From assembly GCA_914767715.1 (NCBI GenBank), contig OU612066.1, positions 8,375,001 through 8,439,000 on the forward strand: a DNA stretch of 64,000 bases, read 5' to 3'. Of the stretch, positions 12,239 to 63,435 are shown one piece after another. The stretch is from Membranipora membranacea. Lineage: Eukaryota > Bryozoa > Gymnolaemata > Cheilostomatida > Membraniporidae. A program made the translations under genes and the position numbers. Under the pieces are notes generated by a model. It was not told where the DNA came from. It worked only from the letters and a program-made list of their open reading frames with translations, and did not search any database. Each line of letters opens with the position of its first letter. Position 1 is the first letter of the stretch.

Positions 12239-12574
12239 TAGCAATGATAATCTTTGCTTATAGTATGGCTATACACACAATAAATTTCTTTACATAGTTA
12301 TGGTGCAAATAATGATATTGTATGAATAAAGAGTTTGGAAAATACTGATATGGCGAGCCTTTCCAACAACACTCTGCATAAGATCCAAATCCCAATCAGC
12401 ATTGAAACAGTACAATTACACTAGGGAATCAATATACTAGTTTGGATCAAGTTCAATCCATTTTGCAAGTGTTGTAACTGCCTCCGCCCCTCTACTGACA
12501 CGCTGAAGGCGTTTTTGCCTTAGTAGTGGAGGCAACTCCATCGCTGGCTATCAAACTTGATCTTGTATATCCTC

Positions 12575-13234: not shown

Positions 13235-16200
13235 ATGGAAGCAGTTCTCGAGCAGTCTCGCAAGACTTTGTTTAAATTAAAACTTGTGACAAAGGTGATC
13301 TGTGAAAATTCTAATTTCCCAGTAAAAGGCAGCTTGAGTTATCCACAAGACTCCAAACAGCGCTGTTTGACAATGGCGAAATACAGCACTTAAACACATG
13401 TGATATTGATGGTTTCCTGCATTTGTCTCAAATGTATGATTGTTCAAAGAAACCAAGTGATAGAAAATTTTCCCTTTTTTGGTTACAGAGCGAGGTCGAC
13501 ATGATGTTTACTGCCGCGCCTGTAGTATCTAAAGCAGATTGGTCAACCAATGTCCTCAAGCCATCTGAAGACCAATCTAATGAAGACCCCAAATTCACAT
13601 CTGAGGACAGAGTCAATTTCTACAGTGACAATGCTGCTCTCTATGATGCAGATATGGTCACTTATGAATTCAAGTAAGACAAATTAATTTCTGCTCAGTA
13701 CATAATTTCATTTGTATCAAACGTGCCAATATCATGTTATGTTATGTTATGGTATTGTTCTCAGGTCTTCAAACTTTGCCCGGGTAGGGTGTGGGTGTGA
13801 CCAAGTTTGGTCCATTTGCCTGCATTCCGAGTCGCTCCCGATCCACTTGTCAAGCCGCGGCGTGACCAGTGGAAGGGAGCAACAGGAATGCAGGCAAATG
13901 GATTAACTTGTTCTAGGATGTGGGTGATAATGACATGCCACAACCCGGCAACCAGCATCCTGGGCTGAGTTTGAGAACTTACACTAGCTATGGTAAGATG
14001 ACATGGTAGACAACCAGTTTGACATTATCTTTTGAGAATTTAGTTGTGAAGAGTTATAGATAATTATTGAACCCGATCTGTTTCCAGACAGGGCCACATT
14101 ACCATATTACCATACTATATAGTGGTGACGTCTCTCTCTGGTGTAAAAATGTGTGCCTAAAACTGAAGATGCAAACAAGCTGTTCGATTGAAAGTGAGAC
14201 AAAAACTAGGCCTTCAGTTTTATGTCTTCTAAGGAATGCAAAATGACCATTTATTACTTTGGCCTACTTTGTTTATTGTGTCATCTTCAGAGATTAGATA
14301 GCACTTAAATTGTCTTCATAACTGAGCTCAGAGTCAACTATTGACTGTGCAGTAACTTGTATCACATTTTATTTCTTTATCTTGGGCTAAGAGGCAGTTG
14401 TTCAAATGTACGATAGGGCACAGGTTAGCCCTAAAACCTAGCCCTCCCGTCCCCCAAGGAAAACTACAGAATATATTCTAGAATTCAGTTTAGCTAGTTT
14501 GGAGAAGGGACTTTATGTTAGCAAGTACTAATTTTCACAGGCTCATAACACATTATAACTGTAATATTATAATGTTGTTAGCTAACCATAAATATCACTG
14601 TTTCAAGCCTGTGCAAAATCTCGAATTCTTCACAGGGTATATGTACCAGGTCATGAGTTCCTACATGAACATCGGTGTTCTCTTTTTTTTTGAAGAGGAC
14701 CTCAGGTAGCTGCTGAAGAAGCTCATGCTGCTTTGAATGGTAATTTTGAGGCCAAGATTCTGGATGTTGGCTGTGGAACAGGCAAAGTCCTCGAGGATGT
14801 GAGTATAGGATTTAATGAGTTCCCCGGTTGGTTGTACCCACACAACCTATAAGAGACTCCTTAAAAAACCAGGTCATACAGGTGAACTCAAATTGAGGTC
14901 CGTTAAAGAATTTGCAGTAGCCAAACTAGTGATTGTTGAGTAGGTGATTCTAATTTATGCATGAAATGAAAAGATAATAATGTCACCACAAACTTTTGAC
15001 CATTAACCATTAATGCAGTGTATGTATTTATTGGCAATAACTGTCACAAACCCGTTGTTTTTCCCACTTTTCTCAGTCTATATATTTTCCTGACCAAAGG
15101 CTCCCAGATGGCCTAAAAAAGATTTAGATGTGCTCTATATTATTCATATTTGTGATGAGGCTGATAATTTGCAATGGAGATTTGCTTGAATCAATAATAA
15201 TGTAGATTTTTTTAATTATATTAAAAACAAATCTCAGATGAAAAGAATAAAAATAATATCTTGAGGAAAAGGTGAACTGTCTACAGAGCAGTAGGACATT
15301 GTTTCCACCCTTGTTAGCTCTAGGCCACCCTCAGTACACATCGGACCTGGGTAAGGGACCTCAGTAAGGGACCTGGGTCAAAATCATCAAATTCCCCAAA
15401 CTAAATATCTCAAGAAATTTCATTACATATAGCTGAAGAATTAATAAAACAGTCTGATATTATCGGGAATATTTAGTCTATGAGTCTATACCATTAGTGA
15501 AATGGCATATTTTAATTCCTCTAAATGTTTTTCAACATTTTGGTGTACCACTCATTACGAGGCCCAAGTTCCAATACAGCTTTTATTTCTTAAGTGCGAC
15601 TCAACAGTCAACACTGGCTAGTTTGAAGCCCGATCCACAAGTGTAGCACTCAAGATGATTCACAATAAGTAGTATAGACTCCTATAATTCCTTTCCCTGC
15701 AGAGTTTTAGTTATGTATTTGATGATCAATGTGTACTCAGTCACAGGTATATCCATAATTTTTTATTGCAGATGCTAAAGTTTGGACCATATAAAAATGC
15801 AGATGGATTGGAACCTGCCAAAGGAATGCTCGATATTGCACAACACAAGGGACTTTATCAAGTCTATCTCAACAAATTCCTATATCTCGATTGTGGCCTT
15901 GAGCATGGTATGTGACATACTTGTTCCTTTCTGTATTAAAGTGTCAGTCAGCCAATGCAGTAGCCGCTGGTCAAAACATAAGTCACTATATGGTCAAATG
16001 AAGAATGAGGCCACAACTCCCACTACTATAACGATGTTTATTATCATTCATTACATTATGTTTATTACATTTATATAATAAATACTAGGATTTATATGTT
16101 CATGTTTGCTACACCAGGGAGAATGGATCCCATTCTCCCTGGCTACACACAACATCACTTCTCAACTTGCTAGTGTCTGCATTATTAGATACTGATATAT

Positions 16201-30668: not shown

Positions 30669-31972
30669 TTGTTAGTGTACACCCCAAAGTGCACCATTCG
30701 AGTGTATCATACTGAAAAGATGCAGGCCAAGAAATATTGTCATGATATGCCAGGTTGTTCATATTGGGCAACGGAAAATGATAGTATGCCACGATCATCC
30801 ACTCATCACTCGGCTAGTAGTCTACTAGCCGACACCACTCATTGTGATACAACTAACCAGCACTCACCGACAAAAATGTCCACAATTGAAGCCATTCAAT
30901 TACAACTGTTGTCTGCACTTGAAAGAATTAATAACTTGGAACGAAAAGTTAATATAATTAATAACGAGAACTCCAGCTTGAAGAAAGAGGTAGAACAATT
31001 CAAAACACATCAATCTAATATTCCCAAGGGGTATCAGGACAAAGTCCCGCAGCCAGAATTCCAAAACCAAAGATCCCAATGGACAAAGTCCCGCAACCAA
31101 AGTCCCATAGTCAAAGGTGTCTCAATCAGTAACTGCTAACAAGGTGACATTTTGCTCAGTTAGCACAAGCAATGAAAAACCAAAACTCTGTTAAACCGAT
31201 TCAAAAGCATGAGAGACATAAGCGTACCATCACATTCAAACCACAAAAGAATACCGTAGTAACTGTTGAAAGAGAGGGTGATATCGTCAAGAATTATGAC
31301 GACATCAGAAAAGCTATAGGCGGACTCGACAGCGACATTATTTTTGAGAGAATTAGTAGAAGCAGTAATCACTGCTTAAAAAAGTTCTGTGTGCAATTCA
31401 GCGAAGAAAGAATGGTAGATACTGCCATCACCTAATGGTCACCAAACATATTTGGACAATCTTCGGCTAGAAAACCTATCCGACAGTCTCAGGCCATATC
31501 GGTCGGAGTTATCAAAGGTGTTCCTTTTTTTGTTGATGACGCTGACATTGTGAGGGACCTCGAACAGGGAGGATTTGGTGAAACTACGGTGTCAAGAATA
31601 AGTAAGTTTAAAAATCCTACAAGATCTGTCAGGGTATACTTTAAATCTCCCGAACTTCTACAAAAAGCCATGAAAGATAGAGTGCGCTCTAATAACCTTA
31701 CTTTCGTGGTCGAAGAGTACAACATGCCATCTGTCATTAGATGCTACAACTGGCATGGATACAAGCACAAAGCATCATCTTGCCCCAATCAAAAAGCCTG
31801 TTTCAACTGTGGTGGTGCGTACCATGGCGATCAATGTTCCGAGGTCCCTAATTGTGTCAACTGTAAGGGAGATCATCGAGCGTCATCCATAACTTGCCCA
31901 GTATATCTGAAATTATCTCACGCAATGCTCTCTAGATCTGCAACTGAGTCTTCACCCTCAAGTTCCGATTGA
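30669..31972 (+). pseudogene. LINE ORF1 (coiled coil plus zinc knuckles), broken
   Basis: This is the first frame of the non-LTR element. An N-terminal part contains a coiled coil (ALERINNLERKVNIINNENS). After a frame change near 31139-31172 and a stop at 31433-31435 comes an RRM-like stretch (GVIKGVPFFVDDADIVRDL). Three CCHC-type knuckles end it: CYNWHGYKHKASSC, CFNCGGAYHGDQC and CVNCKGDHRASSITC. In the first the second Cys is replaced by Trp. Such proteins coat LINE RNA and are needed for retrotransposition. With a stop and a frameshift, this copy is dead. Confidence 0.75.
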
Positions 31973-31999
31973 CTAGAGAATTTCAACACAAACAACAAT

Positions 32000-34668
32000 G
32001 TGTCCGAAAACTGCGTTCTTCCTGCAATATACATCCATTATATCAGATCACTAAATCTAGAGAAGTATAATGAGCTAAAGTTTCTGGCGAAGCACTATGA
32101 TCTTATATTTCTGACTGAATCTTGGCTTACTTCAGATAAGGAGGGTCTTTATAATATTGATGGATTCAAATTACATACATGCCATCGAGCCAACAAACGC
32201 ACAGGTGGCGTAGCTGTTTATGCCAGGGATACACTTTCAGTGCAGAAGCTATGTACATATTCTGACCGATCTGTATCTGCCTACTGGTTTATGATTCACC
32301 AAGCAAACATGCCATTTGTTATATTTGCTGTAGTTTACCACCCCCCTGGTTTGCCGAAATTGTCAAAGGATGGGACAGTGGACCACATTATATCCACTGT
32401 TTCCAAACTACTGCATAAGCACTCATCAGCAAAATTATTCATCTGTGGAGATTTTAACGACCTGGATAATGAGTCAATAACAAACATTACCCCAGTTCAA
32501 CAGATAGTGAAATTCCCTACTCGATATGACAGTTGTTTAGATCTCATATTCACAGATATTGCTGAGTACGTTGAATCGGGTTGTGTGTCTTTGCCACCAA
32601 TTTTGACTAACGATCACTGTGCCATTTCTGTGCCTTCGGTAAAGAGTAAGAGAGCTCCGAATTACAGTACCATAAGAAAACGCAACATCACTCCTGCCTA
32701 TAAAGTAACTGTAACAAGAGAGTTGTCCTCCCTCTCATGGTCAAATCTATTCAACGCAAACACAGCTGATGAGAAGGTTGATATCCTTCACATCACTATC
32801 AATAGTATACTAGAGAAACATTGTCAAGTTAGGGGCGTGCGCGTTCCTTCTGGGAATCCGGTATTAACATCACCACTAATCCGCAAACTTCAGTGTGCTA
32901 AACAGAGAGCTCATAAGAAAAACAACCCAACCTGGAAATTCTTGGCCAAGATGCTGTCATCACAACTTAAACAGCGACTGGAAAAGCAGACTTCGGATAA
33001 TGTGAATGAGACTGTTCAAGGTAGCAAAAGCTGGTGGAGAAACCTCAAACAGCTCACTGGAGACTGGCACAATGCACGTCCTGCACCGTTCATATCGATG
33101 AATGGTAACTGGCTGTCCCACTCTCAGTTTGTAGAACAGTTAAACACCTATTACCTCGATGGACATCAAAGCTATGTGCCCATACACCCTTCTTTAACTG
33201 ATGATCGTGTTTCTGTCTCTGTTAATGAAATGGAAGTCTTCAAACATCTTAGAGGTATAAACACTCACAAGTCTACTAATAGAGAGGATTATCCTAGCTG
33301 GGTCACCAAAAACAATGCACATCTGTTGTCACTTCCAATAACTAATATAATCAACAAAGTTCTTGAAAGCGGTCATTTCCCCAAGCTTTGGAAAAGAGCA
33401 GAAGTTACTCCAATGAATAAAGTGAAGACACCTTCTACCTTCAAGGAGCTCAGACCTATCTCGTTGCTCTTCCATGTAGGAAAAGTTATGGAGAAAATCT
33501 TATCTGAGCTGATCAAGGCGGAACTCCCCAGTTTTGATGATCAGTATGCATATACTAAAGGAATGAGCATCACTGACGCTCTAGTGAAATTTACAACGGA
33601 AATTGCGTCTAGTCTTGATGATAAACAGAATGTTGCTGTTCTGGCTTTGATGCTGGATTTCAGCAAAGCTTTTGATAAAATGCTTCCACACATTGCTATT
33701 CAAAAACTTCTAGCCTTAAATACCAGTCCTAGTCTCGTCAGACTGATGATGAGTTTCTTCAATGACAGATGGCAGAGAGTGAGGTACGCAGATGTATATT
33801 CATCATATGAGTGTTGCAAAATCGGAGTTCCACAGGGTGCTATTATGGGACCGCTCTTGTGGAACATTTTTGTGCATGATCTGCTGCCCGAAATACCTTG
33901 TATCAAATACACAATGACACTACAGTTTATAATGTCATAGAAAGCTCGGAAGTGCGCATAGAAAACACGACATCTCATAAAGCATCTCTCGTATTTCATG
34001 ACAATCCTCTACAGTCTGCAGCTGATTATGCGGCAAGCTGGTGTGAAGAAAATTCGATGCTGTTAAACATCACTAAGTCACAATCACTGACTCTAACCCT
34101 TCAAAAGAACATCATCTGTGATCCTATCAAGATAAATGACATGCCCATCTCACAAAATTCATCAGTCAAACTTTTAGGGGTTTGCTTTGACAATCATATG
34201 AGATTCAGTGCTCACGTTGACACTCTAATAAGTAAGTAAGTAAGGCCAGCTGTGCATGCCATTATTCGGCTCAGGAAAGCTGGGGTCTCCACGTCTAGTC
34301 TGGTCACATTTTATAAATCCAGAGTTCTGTCAGTGATCTCGTAGGCAGCACCAAGTTGGTTCCCATACTTATCGAAAGGGGACAAGGAGATTCTTGAAAG
34401 ACTACAGAAGTTATGTCTCAGGGTTATTATGCCATGGTTAGAACATTATGATGAGCATCTTGCAGCATTAAATTTAACAGAACTAAGTGTTTATCTGGAC
34501 ATATGCTGCCTAAAGTATGTCAATAATGTGAGAAAGAACACCAGCCATCCACATCACCATCATCTACATCACCTAGCAACAAATGACAAGCACCATCATA
34601 AAACCACGACCCTCCCTAAATCCAATACTGCTCTTTGCAGAAAAAGCCTTTTTTATAAATACTCATAA
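32000..34668 (+). pseudogene. LINE ORF2 (APE endonuclease and reverse transcriptase), broken
   Basis: An intact stretch to 33940 holds the endonuclease landmarks (IRSLN, LTESWL, YHPPG, ICGDFNDLD, TNDHCAISV). The reverse transcriptase blocks follow: ELRPISLLFHVGKVMEKIL, LMLDFSKAFDKMLPH and GVPQGAIMGPLLWNIFVHDL. At the catalytic box, normally YADD or FADD, there is a frameshift, and the shifted frame (33898-34239) reads HNDTTVYN, so one of the two Asp residues is lost. A stop follows at 34237-34239 and the thumb-like C-terminal part continues to 34668, with an in-frame stop near 34342 and a His-rich end. The arrangement resembles CR1/L2/Daphne-type elements. The tail near 34750-34770 is AT-rich. 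Confidence 0.85.
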
Positions 34669-34963: not shown

Positions 34964-35897
34964 GGGTTCTGGAAAACGCGGAAAGGCTGAAAATCAGTTT
35001 CATCGCGGAAAAGCGCTTTCCGCGTTTTCGAAAATGCGGAAAATCGTTTTCCGCGTTTTCGAAAATGCGGAAAATCGTTTTTCACCTTGAATTTCATTAT
35101 GATGCTAAAAAAAACTGCTGGAAAGACATTGAGACATCACCACTGTATCATATGAGTGTTTTTGGTAAAAATCAATTGAACAAAATTTTTTTTTGGGAAA
35201 TGCGGAAAATATTTTTTCCTCAAAAATTGATCTCAATGCATAGAAAATGAACTGTAACCCATTAAGATATCATCCCCATCTTTTAACGGCCTGAATTTCA
35301 GGTTTTTCTGCGCTTTCTAAAGATGGAAAAACCTGAAATTCAGGCCTTTAGAAGATGGGGATGATATCTTAATGGGTTACAGTTCATTTTCTATGCTTTA
35401 AGATCAATTTTTGAGGAAAAAAATATTTTCCGCATTTTCCAAAAAACAATTTTTTTCAATTGATTTATACCGAAAACACTCATATGATACAGTGGTGATG
35501 TCTCAATGTCTTTCCAGCAGTTTTTTTTAGCATCATAATGAAATTCAAGGTGAAAAACGATTATCCGCGTTTTCGAAAATGCGGAAAACGATTTTCCGCG
35601 CTTTCTAAAAATGGAAAAACCTGAAATTCAGGCCTTTAGAAGATGGGGATGATATCTTAATGGGTTACAGTTCATTTTCTATGCTTTAAGATTAATTTCT
35701 GAGGAAAAAAATATTCTCCGCATTTTCCAAAAAAAAATTTTGTTCAATTGATTTTTACCAAAAACGCTCATATGATAAAGTGGTGATGTCTCAATGTCTT
35801 TCCAGCAGTTTTTTTTAGCATCATAATGAAATTCAAGGTGAAAAACGATTTTCCGCGATGAAACTGATTTTCCGCCTTTCCGCGTTTTCCAGAACCC
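34964..35897. repeat. Large foldback palindrome with duplicated right arm
   Basis: The outer ends are inverted (GGGTTCTGGAAAACGCGG at the left, its complement at the right). The left arm (about 34964-35300) is mirrored by a right arm (about 35330-35570), which is then repeated in direct orientation (about 35590-35870). The arms contain CGCGTTTTCGAAAATGCGGA units. The flanks share GTATTCA at 34955-34961 and 35899-35905, not perfectly flush. There is no coding capacity; frames running through the arms are mirror images of each other. The likely identity is a foldback-type non-autonomous DNA element. Confidence 0.75.
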
Positions 35898-36796: not shown

Positions 36797-39700
36797 ATGT
36801 GGTTTCAATGGCGAAAGATGTGCTTTAAAATCGGTGTGATAGGATTCTTCTTTCGGTTACGTATGAATCAATTATGGCTGGTCTGCCTCGACACACTCTT
36901 CCGTATTCTTGGGTATGGAAGTTAGTCTACTTGTGCAATAGCAGGATGTTTCGGAATTGTCAGCTCTACTCATTAATGCAGTGTAATAGCTAATAAATAT
37001 TCATATAAGTGAATGTAAATTGTTGCCAAATCGAGTGCTTATAGAGGGGCTTTCCCTTACAAATTCATTGAATTTTATATCATCTAAATATTGTATACCC
37101 AACCACCCTCTGAATGCAGTCTTATCATCCAGGTGTCTGTGATAGAATATTATGACTTTATCACATGTGCTCCAATCTCTTCTCATATTTTGTCTCACAG
37201 CTTTTTTGCTGTCATACTGGACGTCAGAGACTTCAAACAGGAATATGAGAAGCACTCACCTGAAGACTTGCAGTGGCAGATCCCTTACCTACAGAGATTG
37301 GCTGATCACTATGTAAAGAAGGCAAGGCGGCAACCAAAGAGCCAGGAATCATTATGGAGACTTATGTTACATTACACTGGGATCTGCCGTATTCAACCTC
37401 AATGGAGAACATACCTACAGGTTTGTGATATGCATGTTTACAATTAGACTTGGCCCTCCAATTCCCAAACCAAAAATCATTAATTAGGGTCGCAGCAAGA
37501 CAAAATTTGTTATATTACTCCTCTGTTGGAGCAATTTTTATCAGGTTTAAAGTCAACACAATTTCAACACGAAAAGCATTGTATCAAAAAATAGATATGT
37601 TACAACTAATAAGTGCTCCACCATTTTGGATGAAATGTTCCAGATCATCTCTCATTTGACAAGTACTTGCAAATATTAACATCTAATATTGATAAAATGT
37701 GACCTTTTTCAAAAAAAGGTTGCACACTCATGCCTTTAACCTTCAGGTACTTCAGTGCTATCCTTCCTGCGCAGTCTTGATAATGAAGTTCAATAGCCCT
37801 ACGCTAGATGCTAATCCACCCTTTTGTACCTCAATACTACAAGAGTAGGAATGCTAGTGCGGCATTGCTTCTGAACATCTTCCAAAACCTAGGGATAATA
37901 TCTTGCCTCTTAATTGAAATCTTCTTTTTGATTGACACGAGTTTTGAATAAAGATCACCCTGGGTATCAAATTCGGTCAACAACATTCTAGAAGGACATA
38001 TCTTGCTGAAATCGGAGGCCAAATTATTTATTGACTGTTATTCACTTGTTTAGATGTAGTACTTCTGGTACTACCAGGTGTACATGGGTATTTGGTAGAG
38101 TAGGGGATCAGATATTTACTCTCAAGACAAAAATAAGCAGGGCGATTTCCCTCGTTTACAAACCATTATGGGCTATGCAGAATCTCTCAGTTGTTATTCA
38201 AAGTTTAAAATGGATAGATAGCGTTCTAAGGTTGAATTTAAACCCATTCTCGGAGTTGCCCTCTGTCCATTTGGGTACTTTTTAGGACTAGCACCATTAT
38301 TTTTACTTCAGGGACATGGCTTACTAAATAGCATCAAGGCAAGAATAGAAGATTCAGACAACTCATCTGTCTCTGCTGGTAGCCTATCATGCGAATGGGA
38401 GAGTATTAATCATCAAATATATGAGTTAGAGTCTCTGTGGTATCAAGGCCGGCATCCACTACGGAATTCAGAAGAGCTAAAGCAGCTAACATTTGAGCAC
38501 AAAGAAGAACTCAAACGGATCCGTCAGAAATGGAAAACTGTATACAAATCAATCGGGGACGAGTTCGGTGCAGGATTTGACATGGATCAAATGTTTAGTG
38601 ACAGAGCTAATCAACAAAAGTTGACCTTTGCCGAGAAAACCTTATCCGCTAGTAAACAATTGACTGATGACATGAGATTTTTTGCTCAAAAGATCATTGT
38701 GTCTAGTGCCAACCTAGTACAAAGAGCATATGGAGAGCCGCCATGTTCATTTGGAGTTCTGCTGTTTGGTAGCCTTGGTCGTTGCATAGAAGGCACACCA
38801 TATTCAGATATCGAATTTGGCTTTATAGTTGAGCATGACGACGCTGACAGCTATTCTTACTTTGAAAAGCTAGCTGTAGACATCTATTTTCGACTAGGCA
38901 ACCTTGCAGAGTCTCCTTTAAAATTATTCTACATACCAGAGCTCTTCCGTAAACGCCATGTGTTTGATACGACTAGCGATTCTATGTGGTTCAAAGACAT
39001 GAGCAAAAGTGGATTTAGGTTCGATGGGATGACGCCCAAATCCGGTAATATACCAACAGGCAGTGGGTTGAATCAACACCACTTAACCCTAACTGCAGAT
39101 CAGATGATGACCAGATATCGCCAATGTTTTAAAGATTTTTCTTTGAATAGAAAAATAAATGGAGATTTGGCAGACTTGATGGCAAGTATGGACTTACTTC
39201 ACGACTTTGGCAATGGCAGACTTTTGTATGAAGATTTCACGACCATGCGGAACAGCTTCGAAAGCACAGTGGCAGATGATAGGCATATTATGCGAGCAAA
39301 TGAAAAGCGAATACAAACTCTTCAAAGGGATCTTGAAGATCATGAGTTCACTCCTATGTCAAACCTGAACACAGATTTTAGGAGGATCCAAGTGAAAGCC
39401 GACATTCTCCGCTTCATCACCTTACTTGCTCTTAACTTCCGGATAGGTCTGCTGCAATATCAGCACGTTGGATCAGCAGATGAGCTGTTTAGGAAACTCC
39501 ATGAAGACGGATGGATAAGTAGTAGGTTATCCCAATCACTGTTGTTCATTCTTTCCTCTGCCCTCTGGTGTAGAACCTCTGCCTACCTTCAATCTGGTAC
39601 ACAATCAGACTATATCTCTCTTTTACCCAAATACAAAGCAGGATATCAGCTCAATGACGACTTCCATTTACCAATGCAGCTTTTCATTCCATTGACTTAT

Positions 39701-41425
39701 ATGCAGGCTCAACTTAAGCGCTGTATTATAGCGCCGAGAGAGCGGTCTAGGTACGGTAGAGGCAGTGGTAGGAGTATTATAGGTGTTATCAAAACAATGT
39801 TACATGAAGCGGACAGTATAGATAATCATGACTTTGTGTTGTTGTCCAAGCTTTACCATGCTTGTGGAGATTCAGAGAATGGTCTTAAAGTGATAAGCAG
39901 AAAGGTGAAAGGATACACAGGCAGAGAATTCGAGAAACTTTCCCCAGACGAGACTTTCAATGTTATGCGCAGTCTTCTGATAAACATACAACGACGATCT
40001 GATGCAGCGGAAGATTCTCCAGTATGGGAGGTAGTTCAAACGGTGGCTCATCTGCTTTTTCGTCTTTCCAAATATGAAGAAGCCAGGAAATATTTCAATC
40101 TTAGCTCGAATGAACCTGGCCTGTCGTCACCCTTAAAGGCATGTTATACAGGACTTAGTGGATTTTGTCTATCTATGACAAGCAAGCCTATGGAGAGCTA
40201 TATTCACTTCTCGGAGACCAACTTGGAGCTTCAGCGAGACTTTGGAGTGAGAACTATTTCAGAAGTCATAAATTATATATTTAGTCCGACGTATGAAAGA
40301 TCGCAAGAAGACATTTTGATTGCAATTGTAGCAACAATGGATATCAAGCTTTGTCGTGAGATATTGGAGTATCACCAGGGAAGTGCTAGGGCTCATAAAA
40401 AATCATGGCAAACGCTGAAAGATATATTCCATATCCTAGTCAACTATTTCACTGTCATCAATATGGGTAGACATCGTGCTCTTGCTGACTTTATGGTCGG
40501 TATTGGAGTAAGGTCTGAACAATTTGGAGACTATCAATCTGCTTACAAGTGGTATAGTGAGGCAGAGGTAATTTTCAAAGAAGTTCAAGGGAAGAATGCT
40601 GCTTCACTGGAAACTGCTGTAGTGGCAGTATATAAAGCTAAGTTACTGATCAAGAGTGGAGCGTTTGAGAATGCAAAATTCAAGTGCCTCGAGATATTGG
40701 AACAATTTGCACTTGTAAGAATACCTTCCCCAATCCATGAGCTTGATTGTGGTGTGATCCTTATAGAGGCTTACCTAGGCTTGGGTAATCGGCTTTATGC
40801 ACACTCTGCTTTGGTGCATTACCTTACTCTTGCTGACAAAATATACAGCAGCAGCTCTGGTATTATTGATAGGTGCAAACTAGGTTTCCTAAATGCCAGG
40901 CTTCTGCTCATGTCAAGTCGTTTGTGGGGGGCTAAAGAAGTTGCTGAAGAGACTTATTTGATGTTGGAAGACTATATTTCTCAGAATTCGATTGCCTTCT
41001 TGAGCAGCCCTCGAATGCCACATGACACAACGGAAACAGTCAAAGGATGGTTGAAAGATATTTTACCAGACAAACCCTACATATCCAGCCATCCGATGCT
41101 CTGTGAAGGTCGACAAATATTAGCTGAGATCTACATAAAGCTGGATATGCTGGAAGAAGCTGAACTTGGACTGGATACAAATCTCAGCGATGAGGGATTC
41201 GATAGAGCCTTTGGTAAGGATTCAGGACACCCTATGATCTCAAAGACTCTTATGACATGTGCAAAGCTGAAGCAAAGGCAAGGAGACTTGAATGCAGCAA
41301 TGGATTATTGTGAGAGAGCCATATACATTTTGAGGGAAAAGTTCACACCAAAAGAACAGCAAGTTCACCAAGATCTCCAACAATGCCAAAGCTTCTACAA
41401 TGAGCTGTTCATGAAATACAAATGA
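36797..41425 (+). CDS. Nucleotidyltransferase-like protein with TPR-like repeats
   Basis: Three exons with exact phases are 36797-36912, 37201-37420 and 38312-41425, coding for about 1149 residues. The N terminus is hydrophobic (KIGVIGFFFRLRMNQLWLV; ILGFFAVILDV) and may be a membrane or signal-anchor helix. At about residues 262-285 lies a polymerase-beta-type nucleotidyltransferase signature, LLFGSLGRCIEGTPYSDIEF, with G-S-x-G-R and S-D-x-E, as in GlnD/DUF294 proteins. The rest is helical with paired repeats typical of TPRs (QSAYKWYSEAEVIFKEVQG; MLEEAELGLDTNLSD; GDLNAAMDYCERAIYILRE). Enzyme activity and substrate are unknown. The third exon is one unbroken 3.1-kb frame. AATAAA occurs at 41704. 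An hAT remnant lies in intron 2, and a decayed 3' copy follows at 43 kb. Domain assignment is by motif only. Confidence 0.88.
37600..37733. mobile_element. hAT-like element fragment in NTase-TPR intron
   Basis: Bases near 37624-37678 match the inner part of the hAT-like element near 11631-11690 (GATGAAATGTTCCAGAT, TTGACAAGTA, GCAAATATT). The end TTTCAAAAAAAGGTTGCACA near 37704-37730 matches that element's right end. The left limit is unclear and may reach about 37445; no duplication was confirmed. Confidence 0.6.
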
Positions 41426-42424: not shown

Positions 42425-43010
42425 TCAGAGACCCGTTGTATGTTGTTCTAGTGCAAGTAGTTATTACTAACACCCTCCCTGCTAACAGGGAGTTTGGGAC
42501 CACAAGTTGGGATCCCAAACTCCCTACTGCTAACATCAACAGGAGGCTGAGCCTTATTTAGAGTTATCTGCACTTTTGGTATGAAAAGACAACTACATAC
42601 ATTATAGATATAGAACATATTATAATAGCATAATAATGTTTTATGGCCTTTTATGTTATTGTCACTCGGAGAAAGCGTGGGTCAATTGTTTGCATATTGT
42701 TATAAAAAATGGTATGAGCAATATATAAATGATACAACGAAACTTGTATGTGAGAGATCTTGGCATGCATTGCCCTGCTGAGAGAGGATTAAGGTAGACA
42801 GTGTTTATTTTGAAATTTCTAAAATTCTTACTTAACAGCCTCCCATCAAGATTTCAGGTTTCACTAGGCCTACATCTATTTTTCTTGGTTCTTTTTAATC
42901 TTCATAAGTTCTGGATCATTTTCTGTATGTTCTTTAAACAAGACCGAGAAAAAAGCAAGTGTCTGTTGCAAAGAAATTAATTCTCTCAACTCTTGACTGG
43001 AAACACAACA
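42425..43010. repeat. Duplicated non-coding block, copy 1
   Basis: This block is similar, in the same order and orientation, to about 45365-45815. Shared landmarks are GTGCAAGTAG or its variant, TTATCTGCACTTTT, GTATGAAAAGACAACTACAT, GTTATTG with CACT and GGAGAAA, and an AGTTCTGGAT segment near the end. It directly precedes the NTase pseudogene and contains one palindromic micro-insertion absent from copy 2. Confidence 0.65.
42479..42533. mobile_element. 41-bp palindromic micro-insertion with 7-bp duplication
   Basis: The element (42486-42526) starts CAGGGAGTTTGGGA and ends TCCCAAACTCCCTA around a 13-base centre. CTGCTAA flanks it on both sides (42479-42485 and 42527-42533). The start matches the element at 16115. 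The homologous block near 45400 has no palindrome at this place. Confidence 0.75.
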
Positions 43011-43022
43011 CAACACAAGGTT

Positions 43023-43795
43023 GCCGATCTATGAGCTTGATTGTGGGTTGGTCCAAGTCTTGTCACGCGGCTACGGGTTTTGGGTTTTTTGGTTTGACTA
43101 AAACCGGTTGCCGCGTGACAAGACTAGGTTGGTCCTCATAGATTCCTATGTTTGTAACGGGGAGCACATGCTGGCACTCACTGGACTGGTACATTATCAG
43201 AATTTAGCTGGATATATCTACAGCGATAGCTGAGGGATTTCTGATATATGCAAACTTGGTTTTTTGCATGCCAGGATTCTGCTTTTATCAAAGCATCTAT
43301 GGCAGGCTAAACACGTTGCTGAGGAGACCTTTTCAACGTTACAAGGTTACAATGCCCAGAATTCTATCTATTTTGCGCAGTCCTCGAATGCCACTTGATA
43401 CACCCTAGACTGTCATAGGATGGATGAAAGACGCTCTACCAGAAAAGCCTTATATATCTAGTGATCCGCTGCTCTGTGAAGCTCGACAAATACTAGCTGA
43501 GATCTACATAAAGCTGGACATGCTTGATGAACCTGAAGAAGGATTATGGATCAACCTGAGCAGTGAGGGATTTGATAAAGCTATTGGTAAGGATTCAGGG
43601 CACCCAATGGTCTCAAAGACTCTCATGACATATGCAAAGCTGAAGCAAATGCGAGGAGAAATTCACATGGCAACAGACTTTTGTGAAAAAGCCATTGGCA
43701 TTTTGAGAGAAAAGTTCATGTTGGAAGAACAACAAGCTCACAAAGCGTACCATCATTACCAACATTTCTACAATGGCGTTACATCTCATTGCAGC
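43023..43795 (+). pseudogene. Decayed 3' copy of the NTase-TPR gene
   Basis: It aligns with about 40730-41420 of the intact gene. ATGAGCTTGATTGTGG opens both, and the later stretch 43424-43790 stays open and similar (EKPYISSDPLLCEARQILAE; GKDSGHPMVSKTLMTYAKLK; AIGILREKFM). The earlier part has stops and frame changes and is split by a 72-bp hairpin insertion. Only the last few TPR-like helices would be encoded; the nucleotidyltransferase part is absent. This is a partial tandem duplicate rather than a retrocopy, since a non-coding flanking block is duplicated too, although the 3.1-kb exon it comes from has no introns to test this. Confidence 0.8.
43055..43126. mobile_element. 72-bp foldback insertion in the pseudogene
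   Basis: Arms AGTCTTGTCACGCGGC and GCCGCGTGACAAGACT pair perfectly and continue with mismatches towards the centre. GGTTGGTCC is repeated exactly on both sides (43046-43054 and 43127-43135), a 9-bp target duplication. The intact parent gene reads straight through the matching place, which confirms an insertion. A 9-bp duplication would suit Mutator-type mobilisation, but assignment is tentative. Confidence 0.8.
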
Positions 43796-43861
43796 AATAG
43801 CAGGAAGATTGACAGAAATAGGCTGTTGTTACCCTGCGAGTGGAGACGTTATATAACCTAA

Positions 43862-46305: not shown

Positions 46306-49300
46306 ATGAGTGTTCGCCATAAAACTCGGCATGATGGAGAGAGGAAAAGGCTACGCTTTATACATACACCGACTGCTACTGAAGAATCGCTGACATCAGA
46401 TACACTGAGCAACTATTCTAATGACAGGTAATGTGATGTTTAGCCCTCTAACTGTGTTTGCTGGCATATCACCTGACCTCATGTTCTCGAAAGAAAAAGG
46501 TTGTTAGGAGTGGGTGAGCTCTCATATACTGATTTCAAAGTTTGTGAAAGTGCGGCTCATACGTTTTGGTTCTTCTTAACAAACATTTCTTACCCAGTCA
46601 TCTTTAGAAGTTTACGATATTCATCCTGACACTCAACATTGAACCCAGAAAAAAGTGGACAAATAGGTCCAGATGTTTGGGAACTAGCCACATAAAAAGT
46701 TAACCTTTCATGATAGCAGGACATGGCACACATTTGTTCACATGTTTTCAAAACCTAAGATCTAAGGTTCTTGGTGTGAGGTCAGTCACACATGCAGGTA
46801 CAAATGTGAGCCCATGTGTTTGCCAAAGTTGTTATTAGCCTCATTAGTGCATGATAGGAGTTTAGTTATGCGCTGCTATCCATGTACGCTGTCAATATTT
46901 AAAGCTTGACAACCAATTAAAGATAACCCTAATCTGCAATTCTGAAGACACACCGTCATAGTGTCAGCAAAACACAAGAAAAAATCTCAACATGCATCGC
47001 ACTGAATGGCTCATGTTATCTCGTAGTACTTAGATTCCAAGAATGTCATCAAATCATTAATTTGAAGTACCATTTCACTGTCGATAGAAATCGATACTGT
47101 GTGCAAAACATTTACGGCTCAAGGGTTGGCTATAATGGGACAGACATTGAGTTTGCTCTAATCAATATTATTTAGGTGTCACAATCCAAGTTTTCTTTAG
47201 CTGGTGAATACCATTTCCTCCATGGCGGATAATTAATAGAGATATGGCCAGATGTCCCACATCCTCTTCCATAATTTTCCATTTGTTAGAGATTGAGAAA
47301 ACAGGTGTCCTTTTTTTTCTGCAGCTTTGTAAGGGCAATGAACTATCTGTAGGTAGATCATGGTAAGGGATGCACATTTTATGTTCGTATTTTACATCAC
47401 CAGTGTCAAAGGTGTCCAGATGTTACTGGACGATCTGTCACAAATTTTAGCCATCAATAATCGTCTCATAGCATATTATCACAGAGTAAGGATATTATGT
47501 GCAGACCTAAATTTGGTCCTAGATATGCGCCAAAATATGAAAAAACAAGGTGAGATCACTCAGGAGCATGTGTAGATGGATGGTCAGATTTCATTGATGG
47601 ACTACCTTTGATTCATACTGTTGAATTTATTGACCTGCAGAATTTTACAAATCAACCTGGATCATAAAACTGCTCTACCAAACAATTAACATGGTTCTTT
47701 GATATGTAATAATTTATACCATACAAACAAATCTGAAAACTTATCACAACTATTGTTTTCTAATTTCAGTATCAAAGATCAGGATGGCAGATTTTTTGAG
47801 TACTTCTCCTCGGTTCACGTCAGCCATGTTGGGTCAGCACCTGGTGAAACTGATGAAGCTGATGGAAACTTCAACTATCGCATACATGGAGTAAGTATGT
47901 GGAAATGTGCTCTCCCCCCCCCCCCCCCGCTTTAATAAAGTGACAACAGAGGAACAAGAACGTTTATTTGAATAGAATGGCCATGTGATTTTCTTACTAC
48001 GTGATGTCAGTCTAACATTCCACTACAAACATATATGGATATTTGACCTATAATACCACCGCTATAAGGAAAAGAGGCTGTTTCCATGACTCTAGCAGAG
48101 GAAAATAAAACTGAAATGGTAGTGCTGGCCTTTCACAAGTTACAATGGCAGCTACTGCTACAAACTTTGGTGATTAAGTATTTGTATGTTTTGGTAGAAG
48201 AACAGGAGACCGACTCTGTCTCAGGAGCTTCTGGAGACGTTAGAAACCATGGAGAAGAAAGAGAAAAAGCAGCTCTCCAACAAAGAGGTAAATAACAGCT
48301 GCAGCACCAATACCTCCCCCCCCCCCCCCCATATAACCTCTCTCTGAGAGATGAGCCTTAGGCCTTAGCCGGGGCTATCAGACGGGGGGATGGGGGGGGG
48401 TAAGAGTCTGCAGGGCTAAGACTTGCTAAACCTCTATCTTCAGTCAGCAAGACTATATGTTTATGGTGATTTGATTTGACAGGTCAGGGAGCTGCACATG
48501 ACAAAGGTAATTTCCGATCCTACATGGTCATGGGTAGCATGGAGTTAAGGTTGCAGGGTTTTGTTGCATTGATAGAGTCACTTGTCTGGGATATGGTGTG
48601 TGAATTGATGCCAAATTTGACACTAATATGGTGTAATGGGGGAAACACATAGTTATCATGAGGCACTATTAAAGCATTAGACATTGGGATACAGACATAT
48701 GGTGCATGCATTAACAGCGATAAAATCTGGTAGCAGATGTGCATCATTGCCTACCACACTCAATAATCCAAAACATTACTTAACTAGAACAACTTCGTCG
48801 ATGGTAACACATGGATTGTCAATGAGTTGGCCGTCTTTCCTAATTTTTCTCTCTATTTTACCCTTTGCTAGTAGTTAGTTATGGGGAAGCATGCCTTCAT
48901 TATGTGTGAGATATTCTCCGAGATGGATTATTAATGTGATTTATACAACTCAGGTTACCATCGCCACCAGCATGATTATTACAAATTTTTGTGATGTATA
49001 TGCCAAACATTGAGTCTAAGACATGTGTCATGACCAATGAACGTAGGCCTTACAAGACTAATATAAAAGTAAGGGTTATTTCTTAGAAAATGGACTAATC
49101 AAAGAAAGTGGTGAGATGATCATGATAATTTTATACAAGTTGATGCAATGCCATTCTGGAAAATCATTGATTAGAAACAGAAGTGTTACTTTCTAACTTG
49201 AAGCAGAAATTCTAAATCCCTAGAGGAGTAGGGTATACGCAGGAGGAAAAGCTGCCAATTTGACGTAGACTTTAGTAATAGTGAAATTTATGATTAGCTT

Positions 49301-52300
49301 TCATTTACTCCACCTCATAACTTTCCACTACAGCTCCCTTCCTGCTCCCACCTCAGCTCGCTTCAATAAAGATACCCCCCCCCCCCCCCCGATACCCCCA
49401 AACTAGCATAACTAATATTTACTCCTCCCAGGTATAATGGCACCTTCTATCTGAGATTTGATCAAGGTAAATATGCCAGCAACTCCCAGAATAGTGGATA
49501 CAGGTGGTCAATGACTATCAGATATCCGTTTATTACAGATCATATCAGACATTTATTCATTTAATCACATTGTCATTCATTACAGGCATTATATCATATA
49601 CATTTATATATAGTCCTATATATTTTATTGTCAGTCTACAACCATTTGTTTATCAGATATATACATAATAATGATTAAGTCTATAGATATATATTTATAT
49701 CAGAGAGTACGTCTTTTTACAGAAAGAACTATTATATATTGAGTTGCTGTATACAATTCAGCACAAGATAGGAGCAGAGGCTAGCACTAGAAGCGCTGAG
49801 GCTAAGCTAGATGAGCTGTATACCTACGGTCAGAAAGCATTCAAAGTGAACGAGGATCAGCATAACAGGCTATTATCTGTCACAAACAGAGCAAAGGTAG
49901 GTAACTCCGAAAAACTTAATTTTTAGGCCAGGAATATTACCCCATTCATGTTATAAACCAACCTGTAGCTTTCCAATACATAAGGGCTCCTTGTTTGCAG
50001 CAGTTTCAAACTTTCTATAGCTAGAGCAACTTCATCGCAACATTTGTAATGCAATGCAATGTTGATCTGTGTCACCACTCACCACCATGTCCCTTTCCAT
50101 TGCTGTGTTCTTCTTTTAGTTTTAAAGCTTAATTTATCTGAATATTTTCAGGCTCCTGTATTAGTGTTAAATATGGTTGTGGAAGAAGCTCGCAATCTGG
50201 AGGCAAAAGATGCGGACGGTGAGTTCCACTCTCTCCCTGGGAATATCTTCATATTTTTCTTTATTTGTGACGTTGACTAGGTTGTCTCTTGTTCTCAAAA
50301 CCTTGTGTAAGATTATAATTATTATTGCACCATGAAAATACTGTTTTAATAAAGTTTTTTTGGTCAGATTGAGTAGGTTGACAGGAACGTTCTTTCGTAG
50401 CATTTTTAAATCACTGTACCTTTCTATCGTAACCAATTACATCACCATATGACCATTTAGAAGCTCTTGGGATGATCGTTTGTCTGAAATTTAAATTGAT
50501 AAGAAGTTTCTAATTTTCTCACAAGAAAGACGTCTCTCCAGAAAGCCATGATTCGCTATTTTAAATGCTGTATTCCCTGTGGGTAACACTTGTGTAACAG
50601 TAAAATATCACTAACAGTATTGTGTCAAGCTCAAAATCGAACCCTGGGTGCATTCTTATCCCGGAAGGGACTCAGACGCCGAATCCCTAGTGTGATTCAA
50701 TTGTTTTGTATATCCTTATTGCAGGTTTCAGCGATCCCTACTGCATGCTGGGTATTATACCTGGAAGCAGGATAGAAGAAATGGATCGTAACATCCAAGA
50801 GCAAGATACAAAGGATACATCAAAGGCTAAAACCATTCTGCGCAAGTTCAGTGGGTCGCTGAGAGACAGATTGAAGGGCAGTTCTAAGGACGGCCCATCA
50901 CATGTCATACCCGCCAAGTTTATACAGAGTACCAAGGTCATCGCTAACTCACTTAACCCTCTCTGGAACGAGAACTTTAAGTTGTGAGTTATCATATCAA
51001 TGTCCAAATAAGGACAAAACCTGATATACTCCATGTCTAATGAAAATGAGTAGAAAATTCACGACTTAGAGGTTAACATAAATCCAATCAGGAGGCATTT
51101 GATTCTCCCACGCTCATTTCTTCCACAGTCTTGGTTGCTGATTCCTGGATTGATTATTACATTAATGGACTGGCCGATAACTGAACTGTCTACATTCACA
51201 TATACTCTCATTATTTGTCTGTTATGTGTGTGAAGGTACAATGCATAGACAACACAATGTCTATGGCTCAACAATGTACCATCTGTTCATTTCAGCGACA
51301 TAGAGAATGTAAGCAAAGACAAGGTTCATATCGATGTCTGGTGAGTAATGGTAGTCATCCCTTTGAATGGAGTAGATTGAAGGCTTCGTTCTAAAACCTC
51401 TCCTGAAATCTTACATGTTTACATGATTGAGGATTTTCATTCAGAATGTCCCGCCACAATATTTTACTTTTATTGACTGGTAAAATTAATCCTATTACCC
51501 ACAAAGGTAGCCAATCATTAGCATGCCAATTATTTAACGCAGTTAGATATCGGGACAAGTCAACAACCACTAACTAAATGTATGTCAGAGATTGATTTTC
51601 TGATAAATTTTCCCAGGTGTTAGATTTGCCATCGGAGTTTTCCAAAATATGAGCATGGTTTGCCTCAATACAGCATAACTGCCTCCCTTCATTATATCAG
51701 AATGCCACATTAAGATGCAGATATACTATATTAAATACATAGCTAAGTCTTAAAGACGTCTAATATTTCAAAAATTAATAAATTGACTCATCTGAACCCG
51801 CCAGTAAACATTTGTGAATATCAAAAACAACCATTTTAGAGAGAAGCTGATGCCTGCCGAATTTTTGAAAGAAGGTTGCTTCCCTCAATCTATTGCCAGA
51901 GAGATATTGCGCACAGAGGTTGTGAGACTTTTAGCAATGAACTAAACCTCAGTTCATTGCTTTTAGATAGGTGCTGATTAGATCAACCTTATTTGTGAAA
52001 CTCAAAATGTTGCATTGTGGGAAAAATAAGGAGTTTGCCAATTAATGAGTCGTCTTCTCTTTTCTACAGGGACCACGATGATGAAGAGTCAGTGTTTGAT
52101 GCTGCTAAGACCCTAAATAAGGCGAAGAATCTGAAAGGTCTAGGTCGAGTGTTCAAACAGATAGCTCAGTCAGCTCGCACCAGTACTGGTGATAATGTGG
52201 ATGACTTTTTGGGATGCATCGATATTCCGCTTCATGTAAGTGCAACTTTCCATTATAAAGAAAATTAAATGGTGATTAAGATAATTATATCTGGACATGT

Positions 52301-61300: not shown

Positions 61301-63435
61301 TAAGATACTGCCCTGCGTCTCGTGTCTGGTCGGAAATGAACTACCTCTGATGATTGTATATATGTTGTGATATTCCCGATAATGAATTTAATTTGTATTT
61401 AGTAACAGAAGAGGCTTCTTTGCTAAGTTCTATAGAAAAAAAATTGTGTTAAATGTTCTGTAAGAATGAATGTGTTGACGGTACCGGCTAACCTTTACCA
61501 TGATGGAGAAGCGCAGTCAGACAATGTATCCTTTCTTCCTCAATCTCAGCTCATCAACATTGTCAATATATATTTTTTAGTATATGAACGGCTATCTCAC
61601 TCTACAGCAGATGTCTACAGAGGAAATTATTTGTGCGTTCTACAATGATATGATCAGCATGCAGGTAAACTTGTGATGATTGTTTAGTACAAGTTTAAAT
61701 AATATAATTTGGTTCTATCTTAGGGAGTACAGGGGCTCGAACTATACTCAAAATTGCATCCCAAAGTTAGACAGCTTTTCTTTCAAAAATATCTGACCAG
61801 TGAATAAGTGAAATGGAAGTGCGGTAGAAAAATGCTAAGACTGTGAAAAGTTTGTTACAACCAACTTCTTGTGCACCTAACACGTGGCAGAAAAAATAAC
61901 AGGAAAATTATTGGACGTTAAAATAATAATGAACATGGAAACGTGTCTTCAGTACTGTTGTATATAATGCAGTCATGGTTCAGTTCAGCCTCCATATATT
62001 TACTTATAGCACAAAACTAAGGATGGAGATGCAAACATATTAGGAACTGTTGGTTACAAGGCTTACTATGATAAGGCACAAGAAATACTCAATGTGGAAA
62101 GTAAGTACGATAATTGATTTGACATCGAGTTGATCAATCTGGTTGATGTCTGATATCAGCTGTCGATTACATGTGTTTACAATTCCCATATTAAGTAATG
62201 TGTGTTACATAAACAGTTTGGTGCACTCGATGAGTGAATGCCCTTGTGGATTGTGTGTTTTTTTCTGGAACAGTTTTCGTTTAGATTTATTATCTATAAG
62301 CGTTGTCATAAGGAGAAAGTGGAATAACTTTTAAACAAGATGAATAACTGATATACTTACACATCTGATATTTTTTCCCAGTCAACTACTGTAAGGATAT
62401 TATAGCTCTGGATTCTAATGGTCTATCAGATCCATATATAGTATGGGACTTATGTCCTCGTCACATCTTCAGAGAATGTCCTGAGCACAAAACTACGATA
62501 AAAAAGAAAACACTTAATCCAATCTATGATGAAGTATTTCAATGGTGAGAAAAATTTTGCTGTCAATGAAAACTTTTTCTTTGTAAGCACACAATATAAG
62601 TAGTTTGTTTGATGTGCTTCATCCTTTCCCACTACTTCGTCCCACATATCGCATTGGCGACCTGAAAATGAGTAGAGAACTATAATGTTTGCCAAATGCT
62701 CTGACCAGCTGTCAACTCTACAGTGCGCATAAACTCGGCTCAACATTTTTGCATCGGGAAGCAAAATAAAAATGTTCACTTCATACATATATCAGAGACT
62801 GTTTTGATTTTAGCAATGTTCCCCATGATATTCTGAAACAAGCTGGTTCCTGTCTGCGCATCACTCTGATGGATTACAACTTTGTTGTAAAGAATGATTT
62901 TGGAGGTGAGGCCTATCTATCTATGAATGATGTACCAGGAGTATTTAGTCCTAGTAAGGGATATCACAGGCAGCGACCAGCTGAGCTAACATTCATGAAA
63001 CCTCAGAATGTAAAAGGTAAGTGAAATCAAGGAGTTAACTCCTTGGTGAAATGACAGGAAGAAGTGAAATTTAGTCATAGATCCCAAGTGGCAGTCGAGT
63101 CATTTTGGAATATCTTCTCCTTCATCAGTAAAGGATAACTCCCACTGTAAATGGTTTTGTTGACTGGATTCTCCCTGCTTCCAGGAAGTTTAAACTTCCT
63201 GATTCTTCCAAGTTCAAAAACACATGGTTCAATATCTTATAGAAATGTTGTGTTCCATCACTCATAACACTTAACAACTTCTGCTGTAGATAACGCACAC
63301 TTGGTGGCTCTGACATGGAGAGTGAATGACACAGTAGCTCAACAGTTTGTCACAAACCGGAGTGCATTAGCTAATGAAGCCCAAACTAAGATTGAGGAGT
63401 ATGCTGCTATGAACCACCACGCAAGTGCCGAGTAA
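46306..63435 (+). CDS. UNC13D/BAIAP3 (Munc13-4)-family vesicle priming protein
   Basis: Proteins of this family prime vesicles for SNARE fusion at the plasma membrane or endosomes. Twenty-eight exons join in phase: 46306-46427, 47770-47890, 48198-48287, 49723-49896, 50152-50218, 50725-50983, 51296-51340, 52070-52235, 52641-52844, 53618-53839, 54042-54166, 54661-54754, 55245-55304, 55532-55684, 56594-56865, 57425-57548, 58302-58370, 58618-58692, 59031-59132, 59424-59501, 59767-59916, 60193-60408, 61186-61299, 61581-61664, 62010-62100, 62382-62544, 62814-63016, 63290-63435. The product is about 1262 residues (human BAIAP3 about 1190). The first C2 domain (about 170-400) has loop Asp residues in KDADGFSDPY and WDHDDEE; the MUN/MHD region is about 420-1060; the second C2 (about 1090-1240) has DSNGLSDPYIVWDL. 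A Ser/Pro/Gln-rich linker occupies about residues 645-695. An in-phase 24-base microexon (48483-48506) is possible. BAIAP3 versus UNC13D was not separated. Confidence 0.93.
47913..49395. repeat. Cluster of long poly-C tracts in UNC13-like introns
   Basis: Runs of 14-18 C lie near 47913, 48317 and 49376, and a G-rich run lies near 48385-48401, within 1.5 kb. Such runs are prone to length errors in assembly and to variation. The bases after the third run (CAAACTAGC, ATTTACTCCTCC) resemble DCAF1 intron bases 4042-4082, so a dispersed element may carry them. Confidence 0.7.
54388..54623 (+). mobile_element. U2 snRNA-headed SINE, copy 1
   Basis: The head (54392 onward, TTGCTTCTCGGCCTATTGGC then TAAGATCAAAGTGT) matches the first 35 bases of U2 snRNA with few changes. 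A body unrelated to U2 follows (CACCTCTAGGATGCAT, CTTTAGGGGCAGCC) and ends without a long A tail. CCCATAACAATATTGAC is repeated exactly at 54371-54387 and 54624-54640, a 17-bp target duplication as made by LINE machinery. It sits in an intron, 20 bases before the acceptor of the exon at 54661. Confidence 0.85.
56883..57094 (+). mobile_element. U2 snRNA-headed SINE, copy 2
   Basis: The head ATCGCTTCTCGGCCTATTGG is closer to canonical U2 than copy 1, and the body aligns throughout with copy 1. Imperfect flanking repeats AATGGTGCTCCGCT (56868-56881) and AATGGGGCGCCGCT (57095-57108) suggest an older target duplication. It begins 17 bases after the donor of the exon at 56594-56865. Confidence 0.8.
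57103..57290 (+). mobile_element. U2-headed SINE, diverged copy 3
   Basis: Directly after copy 2 a third, more diverged copy begins CCGCTCGGCCTAAC. It shares the body landmarks TATCACTGCCATTG, TCTCAGTATGAGGATTTTAG and a CAGTGGAGCC end before a T-rich stretch. Copy 2 probably inserted at the head of this older copy. Confidence 0.65.
57303..57337. mobile_element. 21-bp palindromic micro-insertion
   Basis: CAAGGAGTTAAAGACTCCTTG (57310-57330) has 8-base perfect arms. It is flanked by CTGACAC (57303-57309) and CTGATAC (57331-57337), a 7-bp repeat with one mismatch. Confidence 0.65.
63021..63052. mobile_element. 18-bp palindromic micro-insertion with 7-bp duplication
   Basis: CAAGGAGTTAACTCCTTG (63028-63045) is a perfect palindrome. 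GTGAAAT touches both ends (63021-63027 and 63046-63052). It sits 5 bases after the donor of the exon ending at 63016. Confidence 0.75.
63175..63208. mobile_element. 20-bp palindrome, probable older micro-insertion
   Basis: CAGGAAGTTTAAACTTCCTG (63182-63201) is a perfect palindrome in the same intron as the 63028 element. The flanks CTGCTTC and ATTCTTC agree at five of seven positions, consistent with a decayed 7-bp duplication. Confidence 0.5.

Follow-up and report, generated by a model that had tools for sequence, protein, structure and literature searches.

Palindromes flanked by 7-bp repeats in Membranipora membranacea: probable excision footprints of P-superfamily-like transposons

Introduction

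In a 64,000-nucleotide stretch of the Membranipora membranacea genome (contig OU612066.1, positions 8,375,001 to 8,439,000; hereafter the window), several palindromes of 18 to 41 bp lie directly between 7-bp direct repeats, which raises the question of whether such minute sequences were inserted as they stand or are what larger elements left behind. A sequence-only reading of the window had offered two possibilities, namely solo-terminal products of a larger element and a new class of hairpin-donor insertion. We consider it likely, with a probability of roughly 0.82, that each palindrome is the footprint left when a cut-and-paste transposon was excised, the transposons resembling the P superfamily (Galileo/1360-like, with a 7-bp duplication) and not a new kind of insertion.

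Results

Palindromic loci in the window

The loci were read directly and then re-checked by script. Those that we interpret as footprints are as follows.

16108..16148: footprint 1; GCTACAC (16108-16114), a 27-bp palindrome with CAGGGAGAATGG tips (16115-16141) and GCTACAC (16142-16148)
42479..42533: footprint 2; 41 bp (42486-42526) between CTGCTAA and CTGCTAA
57303..57337: footprint 3; 21 bp with CAAGGAG tips (57310-57330) between CTGACAC and CTGATAC (6 of 7 bases, one mismatch)
63021..63052: footprint 4; 18 bp, CAAGGAGTTAACTCCTTG (63028-63045), between GTGAAAT and GTGAAAT
51928..51966: footprint of the CAATGAACT family; 25 bp (51935-51959) between CTTTTAG and CTTTTAG
47329..47369: probable footprint; 27 bp (47336-47362) between exact copies of GTAAGGG
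47473..47498: probable one-sided footprint; 12 nt of a CACAGAGTAAGG tip (47480-47491) between ATATTAT and ATATTAT

The four palindromes that the sequence-only reading had reported (starting at 16115, 42486, 57310 and 63028) do touch 7-bp direct repeats, which are exact at three loci and match at six of seven positions at 57310; the last three loci above had been overlooked. Its "probable fifth", a 20-bp palindrome (CAGGAAGTTTAAACTTCCTG) at 63182-63201, was not accepted as a footprint because its flanks, CTGCTTC and ATTCTTC, agree at five of seven positions (two mismatches). The closest relative of footprint 1 lies at L002:1509-1536 and carries a different duplication (GTGTAAC), and the strings of footprints 3 and 4 recur identically at 2 and 4, respectively, of the first 89 places listed among the 6,850 that match the CARGGAG pattern described below. 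The tips of footprint 2 measure 13-14 nt (CAGGGAGTTTGGGA and TAGGGAGTTTGGGA) and its final base is A, which breaks the outermost pair; its centre is not palindromic and is read as filler or a longer remnant. At 47336-47362 the left tip is CAATGAACT and the right tip is decayed or different, and the one-sided locus at 47480-47491 has a two-sided relative at L016:5370-5401 with flanks matching at six of seven positions.

Near footprint 2 (42466-42533), an extra CTCCCTG just upstream of the 41-bp locus gives a second small palindrome, CTCCCTG-CTAA-CAGGGAG, that overlaps the duplication and may reflect a complex repair event. Two 8-bp CAGGGAGG cases were also noted, one at window position 42481 and the other at L004:7092. 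Other features of the window are listed here.

31436-33940 (+): LINE-like element, in which 31973-33940 encodes endonuclease and reverse transcriptase domains
35005-35857: tandem arrays (a 31-bp unit; a 288-bp unit x 1.9) rich in TTTTCCGCG and CGCGGAAAA words
38222-41425 (+): long ORF of 1067 aa with weak TPR matches and three database relatives (best 97% identity); a second, partial copy lies downstream at 43409-43861 (+)
43054-43127: 74-bp inverted-repeat element, perhaps a small MITE from a different family, with ends CAAGTCTTGTCACGCGGC and CTAGTCTTGTCACGCGGC and 7-bp flanks that are exact copies of GTTGGTC
43877-43907: CAGAGACTATAGATTGTATCTATTGTCTTTG, likely a decayed CAGAGAC footprint; its 7-bp flanks no longer match
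54392-54524 (+): U2 spliceosomal RNA match, 46.3 bits against a gathering score of 46

Abundance and flanks across the genome

Across the genome (339 Mb, 18 contigs), the pattern CARGGAGN{4,34}CTCCYTG, which admits spans of 18-48 bp, matched at 6,850 places, compared with 45 for a reversed-pattern control, and the tip-to-tip pattern of a sister family, CAGAGAC (CAGAGACTATN{0,30}ATAGTCTCTG), matched at 838 places with a control count of 0. We inspected the flanks at the first 20 listed places of each pattern, taken in order and unchosen. For CARGGAG, the 7-bp repeats were exact at 13 places, with one mismatch at five, two at one and four at one; for CAGAGAC, 13 were exact, and three had one mismatch, two had two, one had three and one had five. 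Most places in both sets are thus flanked by a 7-bp duplication, within the 7-8 bp expected of P-type footprints, and none of the 40 places had exact repeats of 4-6 or 8-12 bp abutting both ends. When the target was symmetrised, T occupied position -2 in 32 of 38 half-sites from 19 selected sites, in 34/40 from the CAGAGAC set and in 34/40 from the CARGGAG set, with G the commonest base at -3. The differences from locus to locus, the single length and the symmetric target motif all agree with the earlier proposal that the repeats are target-site duplications.

An excess over shuffled sequence had been suggested as a check, and it was found at 7 bp for palindromes beginning with CA and ending with TG. 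In 273 kb, made up of the window and stretches L002-L023 (of these, the window and L002 were ascertained, unlike the remaining 21 stretches), 1,266 CA..TG palindromes of 14-50 bp had exact abutting repeats of 7 bp in 13 cases and of 6 bp in one, with none of 5, 8, 9 or 10 bp. Forty Markov shuffles gave a mean of 0.1 exact 7-bp repeats (maximum 1); with one mismatch allowed, 20 were observed against a shuffle mean of 2.15 (maximum 6). The CA..TG condition had been picked after a first look at the data, and without it there was no peak at 7 bp, with 23,752 palindromes yielding 51, 50, 23, 20, 7 and 2 exact repeats of 5, 6, 7, 8, 9 and 10 bp; the later data therefore weigh more. With the condition fixed beforehand, 60 kb of another contig contained three cases at 7 bp (two of them exact) and one at 5 bp. 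The palindromes belong to four tip families, CARGGAG, CAATGAACT, CAGAGACTATAG and CACAGRGTAAG, and the three of 20 listed matches that fall outside all four (L019:6449, L021:9628 and window position 12242) may be due to chance.

Full-length elements with the same ends

The CAGAGAC tip CAGAGACTATAGAT occurs 1,804 times in the genome, compared with two control occurrences. Among the first 100 listed places, 29 facing pairs span 26-52 bp (eight of them 30 bp), four are long facing pairs of 1,248, 1,252, 1,262 and 1,794 bp, and 34 are single, 16 of which are footprints with a shorter second tip. The two long pairs that were read, of 1,262 and 1,794 bp, have inverted ends of 33 nt (CAGAGACTATAGATATAGAGACCTTCCACTTGC; one end reads ..GATAATGAGACC..), and their 7-bp duplications, ATTGCAA and CCCTCAC, are exact. 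A P-superfamily parent is expected to duplicate 7 or 8 bp at a symmetric target of the form GT..AC; both elements show the 7-bp duplication, and the three site sets above show the motif. Neither contains an ORF longer than 91 aa, and both look non-autonomous. With larger elements of 1.26 and 1.79 kb carrying the same ends and 7-bp duplications, the idea of solo-terminal products of a larger element is essentially right. In addition, a 142-bp element at L016:9150-9291 has ends CAATGAACTCCCTCTCC and the duplication GTCACAT, and its first 15 nt (15 of 15 letters) also begin a 21-bp footprint with the duplication CATAGTC at L035:865-885, as read by eye.

Tip lengths and joins

For the first 50 listed of the 838 CAGAGAC footprints, we followed each of the 100 tips along either 33-nt end. 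The match extended for 10 nt in 12 tips, 11 in seven, 13 in one, 14 in four, 15 in one, 16 in 20, 17 in 48 and 18 in seven, and none went beyond 18 of the 33 nucleotides; 75 tips thus ended at 16-18 nt (68 of them at 16-17 nt) and 25 at 10-15 nt. In the seven 18-nt tips, the 18th base is G and the next is T, in place of the A of the element; the G may therefore derive from the opposite tip or be filler.

Thirty of these 50 footprints consist of two tips of at most 17 nt that overlap by 1-4 nt, the commonest join (8 of 50) being a 30-bp string that corresponds to 17 + 17 nt with TATA in common. The remaining 20 have 1-21 extra nucleotides, which are partly copies of tip words and partly tip variants (CTATGG, for example) absent from the two reference elements. 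Both features of P-type footprints, at most about 17 nt from each end and joining by microhomology or short filler, were therefore found in these CAGAGAC footprints. Centres vary widely, with 28 different strings among the 50 CAGAGAC footprints (26 if reverse complements are merged) and 71 among the first 89 listed CARGGAG places, where a recurrent string, CAGGGAGAATTCTCCCTG, was seen nine times. Spans in the latter set were at most 34 bp at 79 of the 89 places and 36-44 bp, longer than 2 x 17, at the other 10; these long spans, like the non-palindromic centre of the 41-bp locus 42486, speak against the footprint reading.

P transposases in the genome

The P-transposase RNase H domain (PF21787) has 134 matches in the genome, several of these being exons that belong to a single gene; 14 control genomes, their kind not shown, had no match. 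At L031, THAP, HTH, RNase H and GTP-binding domains are spread over two ORFs, and the P-type transposon to which they belong (L031-L033; G000:C2, about 141332-146264) has a Galileo-like build, with inverted ends of about 500 bp that are 91% alike and have CATAGACC tips. By eye it appears to have an 8-bp duplication, GTTAGATC, and the scripted 7-mer test found no 7-bp duplication there. It is the sole P element whose ends were read, and its tips are unlike those of CAGAGAC or CARGGAG, which counts against assigning the palindromes to the P superfamily. A P-transposase gene with a 762-aa frame is also present at L030 and L034-L037 (C11, around 7.306-7.312 Mb; C3, around 34.637-34.642 Mb), the two contigs being about 99% identical there. 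The copy at C11:7306600-7310900, which was expected to reveal element ends, showed no inverted ends in 6.3 kb; two stretches from its C3 copy aligned with it from end to end at 99.0% and 99.7% (95% over the last 222 bases), so the gene lies in a larger repeat or duplication.

Discussion

A model of insertion, excision and repair

In the mechanism we propose, an element with inverted ends CA...TG would insert at a symmetric site of approximately GTNNNAC and duplicate 7 bp, a step that is documented in the two full CAGAGAC elements. Transposase would then excise it with a stagger of about 17 nt, a figure suggested by tips that end at 16-18 nt, so that each chromosome end would retain a 3′ tail consisting of the outermost 17 nt of the element. 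The tails, inverted copies of one sequence, would be joined by alternative end joining at TATA, TA or similar, or with short filler; the anatomy of the joins is seen directly, and from it the enzyme is presumably polymerase theta. The product would consist of the duplication, a tip, an inverted tip and the duplication. What inserted was thus very probably the larger element, the palindrome being what remained after excision. The CARGGAG loci of the window would be the same product of related families, to judge from their shared architecture, their flanks and the identical strings found elsewhere.

Alternative explanations

The tips themselves, such as CAGGGAG and CAGAGAC, resemble hAT ends, and one alternative is that the palindromes are excision footprints of another superfamily, such as hAT, that happens to leave tips. 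Cleavage by hAT transposases, however, leaves hairpins on the flanks and is not known to leave long transposon tips. In the hAT element hobo, too, the second position of the target (GTNCGNAC) is T and the penultimate one A, yet its duplication is 8 bp (PMC3276498), and the loci here have 7 bp only: an exact 8-bp target duplication was found at none of the 1,266 palindromes, none of the 20 CAGAGAC places and none of the 20 CARGGAG places. Since the 16-18-nt ceiling on tip length also equals the P stagger (PMC7776569, PMC2895639), we regard a hAT origin as improbable. A similar arrangement of duplication, two arms and duplication could arise if a transposon lost its interior in place, for instance by replication slippage between its inverted ends, with no transposase cleavage. 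Arms of every length, up to the whole 33-nt end, would then be expected; with 0 of 100 tips longer than 18 nt and 68 at 16-17, in-place deletion appears extremely improbable.

The remaining alternatives have the palindromes themselves inserted, a view that is opposed by their varying centres, by tips that stop at 16-18 of 33 nt and by the larger elements with the same ends. If the 18-41-bp palindromes were mobile as such, with transposase recognising their tips, they would be ultra-short MITEs, and the different 7-bp duplications around each of them fit this idea, as do the recurrent strings (9, 4 and 2 of 89 in CARGGAG; the 30-bp string in 8 of 50 in CAGAGAC), which can be read as mobile copies. 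These strings, however, are the ones predicted from joins at TATA, ATAT, TA, TTAA or AATT. The palindromes share inverted ends and target duplications with MITEs, and the 142-bp element at L016 is a MITE by anatomy, but unlike MITEs they have no common interior (71 strings among 89 and 28 among 50), and their centres vary as repair joins do. One-sided cases such as that at 47480, full elements with the same ends and the internal binding sites that P transposase also requires (PMC7776569) and that the palindromes lack make this explanation very improbable. Perfect palindromes between duplications also resemble an inserted hairpin, as would come from a hairpin-shaped DNA donor captured at staggered breaks. 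Their tips, however, fall into a small number of families that are found at the ends of real transposons as well, and their centres contain overlap or filler; together with the variable CAGAGAC centres, the 16-18-nt limit on tips and the existence of full elements, this renders the new class offered as one option by the sequence-only reading scarcely credible.

Comparison with known P-superfamily systems

Excision footprints of P-superfamily-like elements, our preferred reading, have their clearest counterpart in Drosophila. As described in PMC7776569 and PMC2895639, cleavage by P transposase falls 17 bp inside the element and leaves 17-nt 3′ extensions, and Table 1 of the latter gives joins composed of the duplication, up to 17 nt of one end, microhomology or an insertion, up to 17 nt of the other end and the duplication; joins at terminal AT or TA recur. 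The Membranipora loci are alike in having a duplication, at most 17 nt per end, a microhomology overlap or a partly templated short insertion, one-sided cases and repeated use of AT/TA close to the ends of the tails as the point of joining. They differ in their 7-bp, not 8-bp, duplication and in their end sequences, and in being natural, the two patterns matching at 838 and 6,850 places of a single genome, as opposed to induced events.

Closer in duplication length are two other Drosophila members of the superfamily, 1360, with 7 bp at GTTNAAC (PMC3276498), and Galileo, with 7 bp at GTANTAC (PMC4168063 and PMC2775673). With 1360 the loci here share the length of the duplication and the symmetric target motif. 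Galileo shares the 7-bp duplication and the motif, and the P element of the L031 region further resembles it in the length of its inverted ends, about 500 bp; the CAGAGAC elements differ from Galileo in that theirs are short (33 nt). In zebrafish, THAP9 is a P-type transposase able to excise elements (PMC10983969). The THAP9 / Pdre2 system, in contrast to the palindromes here, has an 8-bp duplication and 13-bp ends (PMC7776569), and excision is followed by larger flank deletions.

Implications

The mechanism is already known from flies; what appears new is natural and very numerous footprints with 7-bp duplications. Titles and abstract openings listed by searches of one open-access library mentioned no natural P-type footprints in comparable abundance, a weak indication that none have been described. 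The P-element footprints that we found described come from induced excision in flies, whereas here thousands lie in one natural genome with both the duplication and the join readable. Most likely, the genome retains thousands of excision scars, and among the first 100 listed CAGAGACTATAGAT places, 29 tip-to-tip pairs and 16 cases with shorter second tips stand against four full-length survivors. An improbable extension is that a transposase that excised but seldom reinserted, behaviour reported for zebrafish THAP9, cleared entire families out of the germ line, leaving thousands of polymerase-theta-like repair records across the genome; if true, the 17-nt stagger would be shared by a branch of the P superfamily with 7-bp duplications. 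Two questions can be tested with sequence, namely whether P-type elements that duplicate 7 bp have conserved the 17-nt staggered cut, and how non-complementary breaks are repaired in the germ line of this organism. For genome annotation, such palindromes are better treated as traces of earlier excision than as MITEs or hairpin genes.
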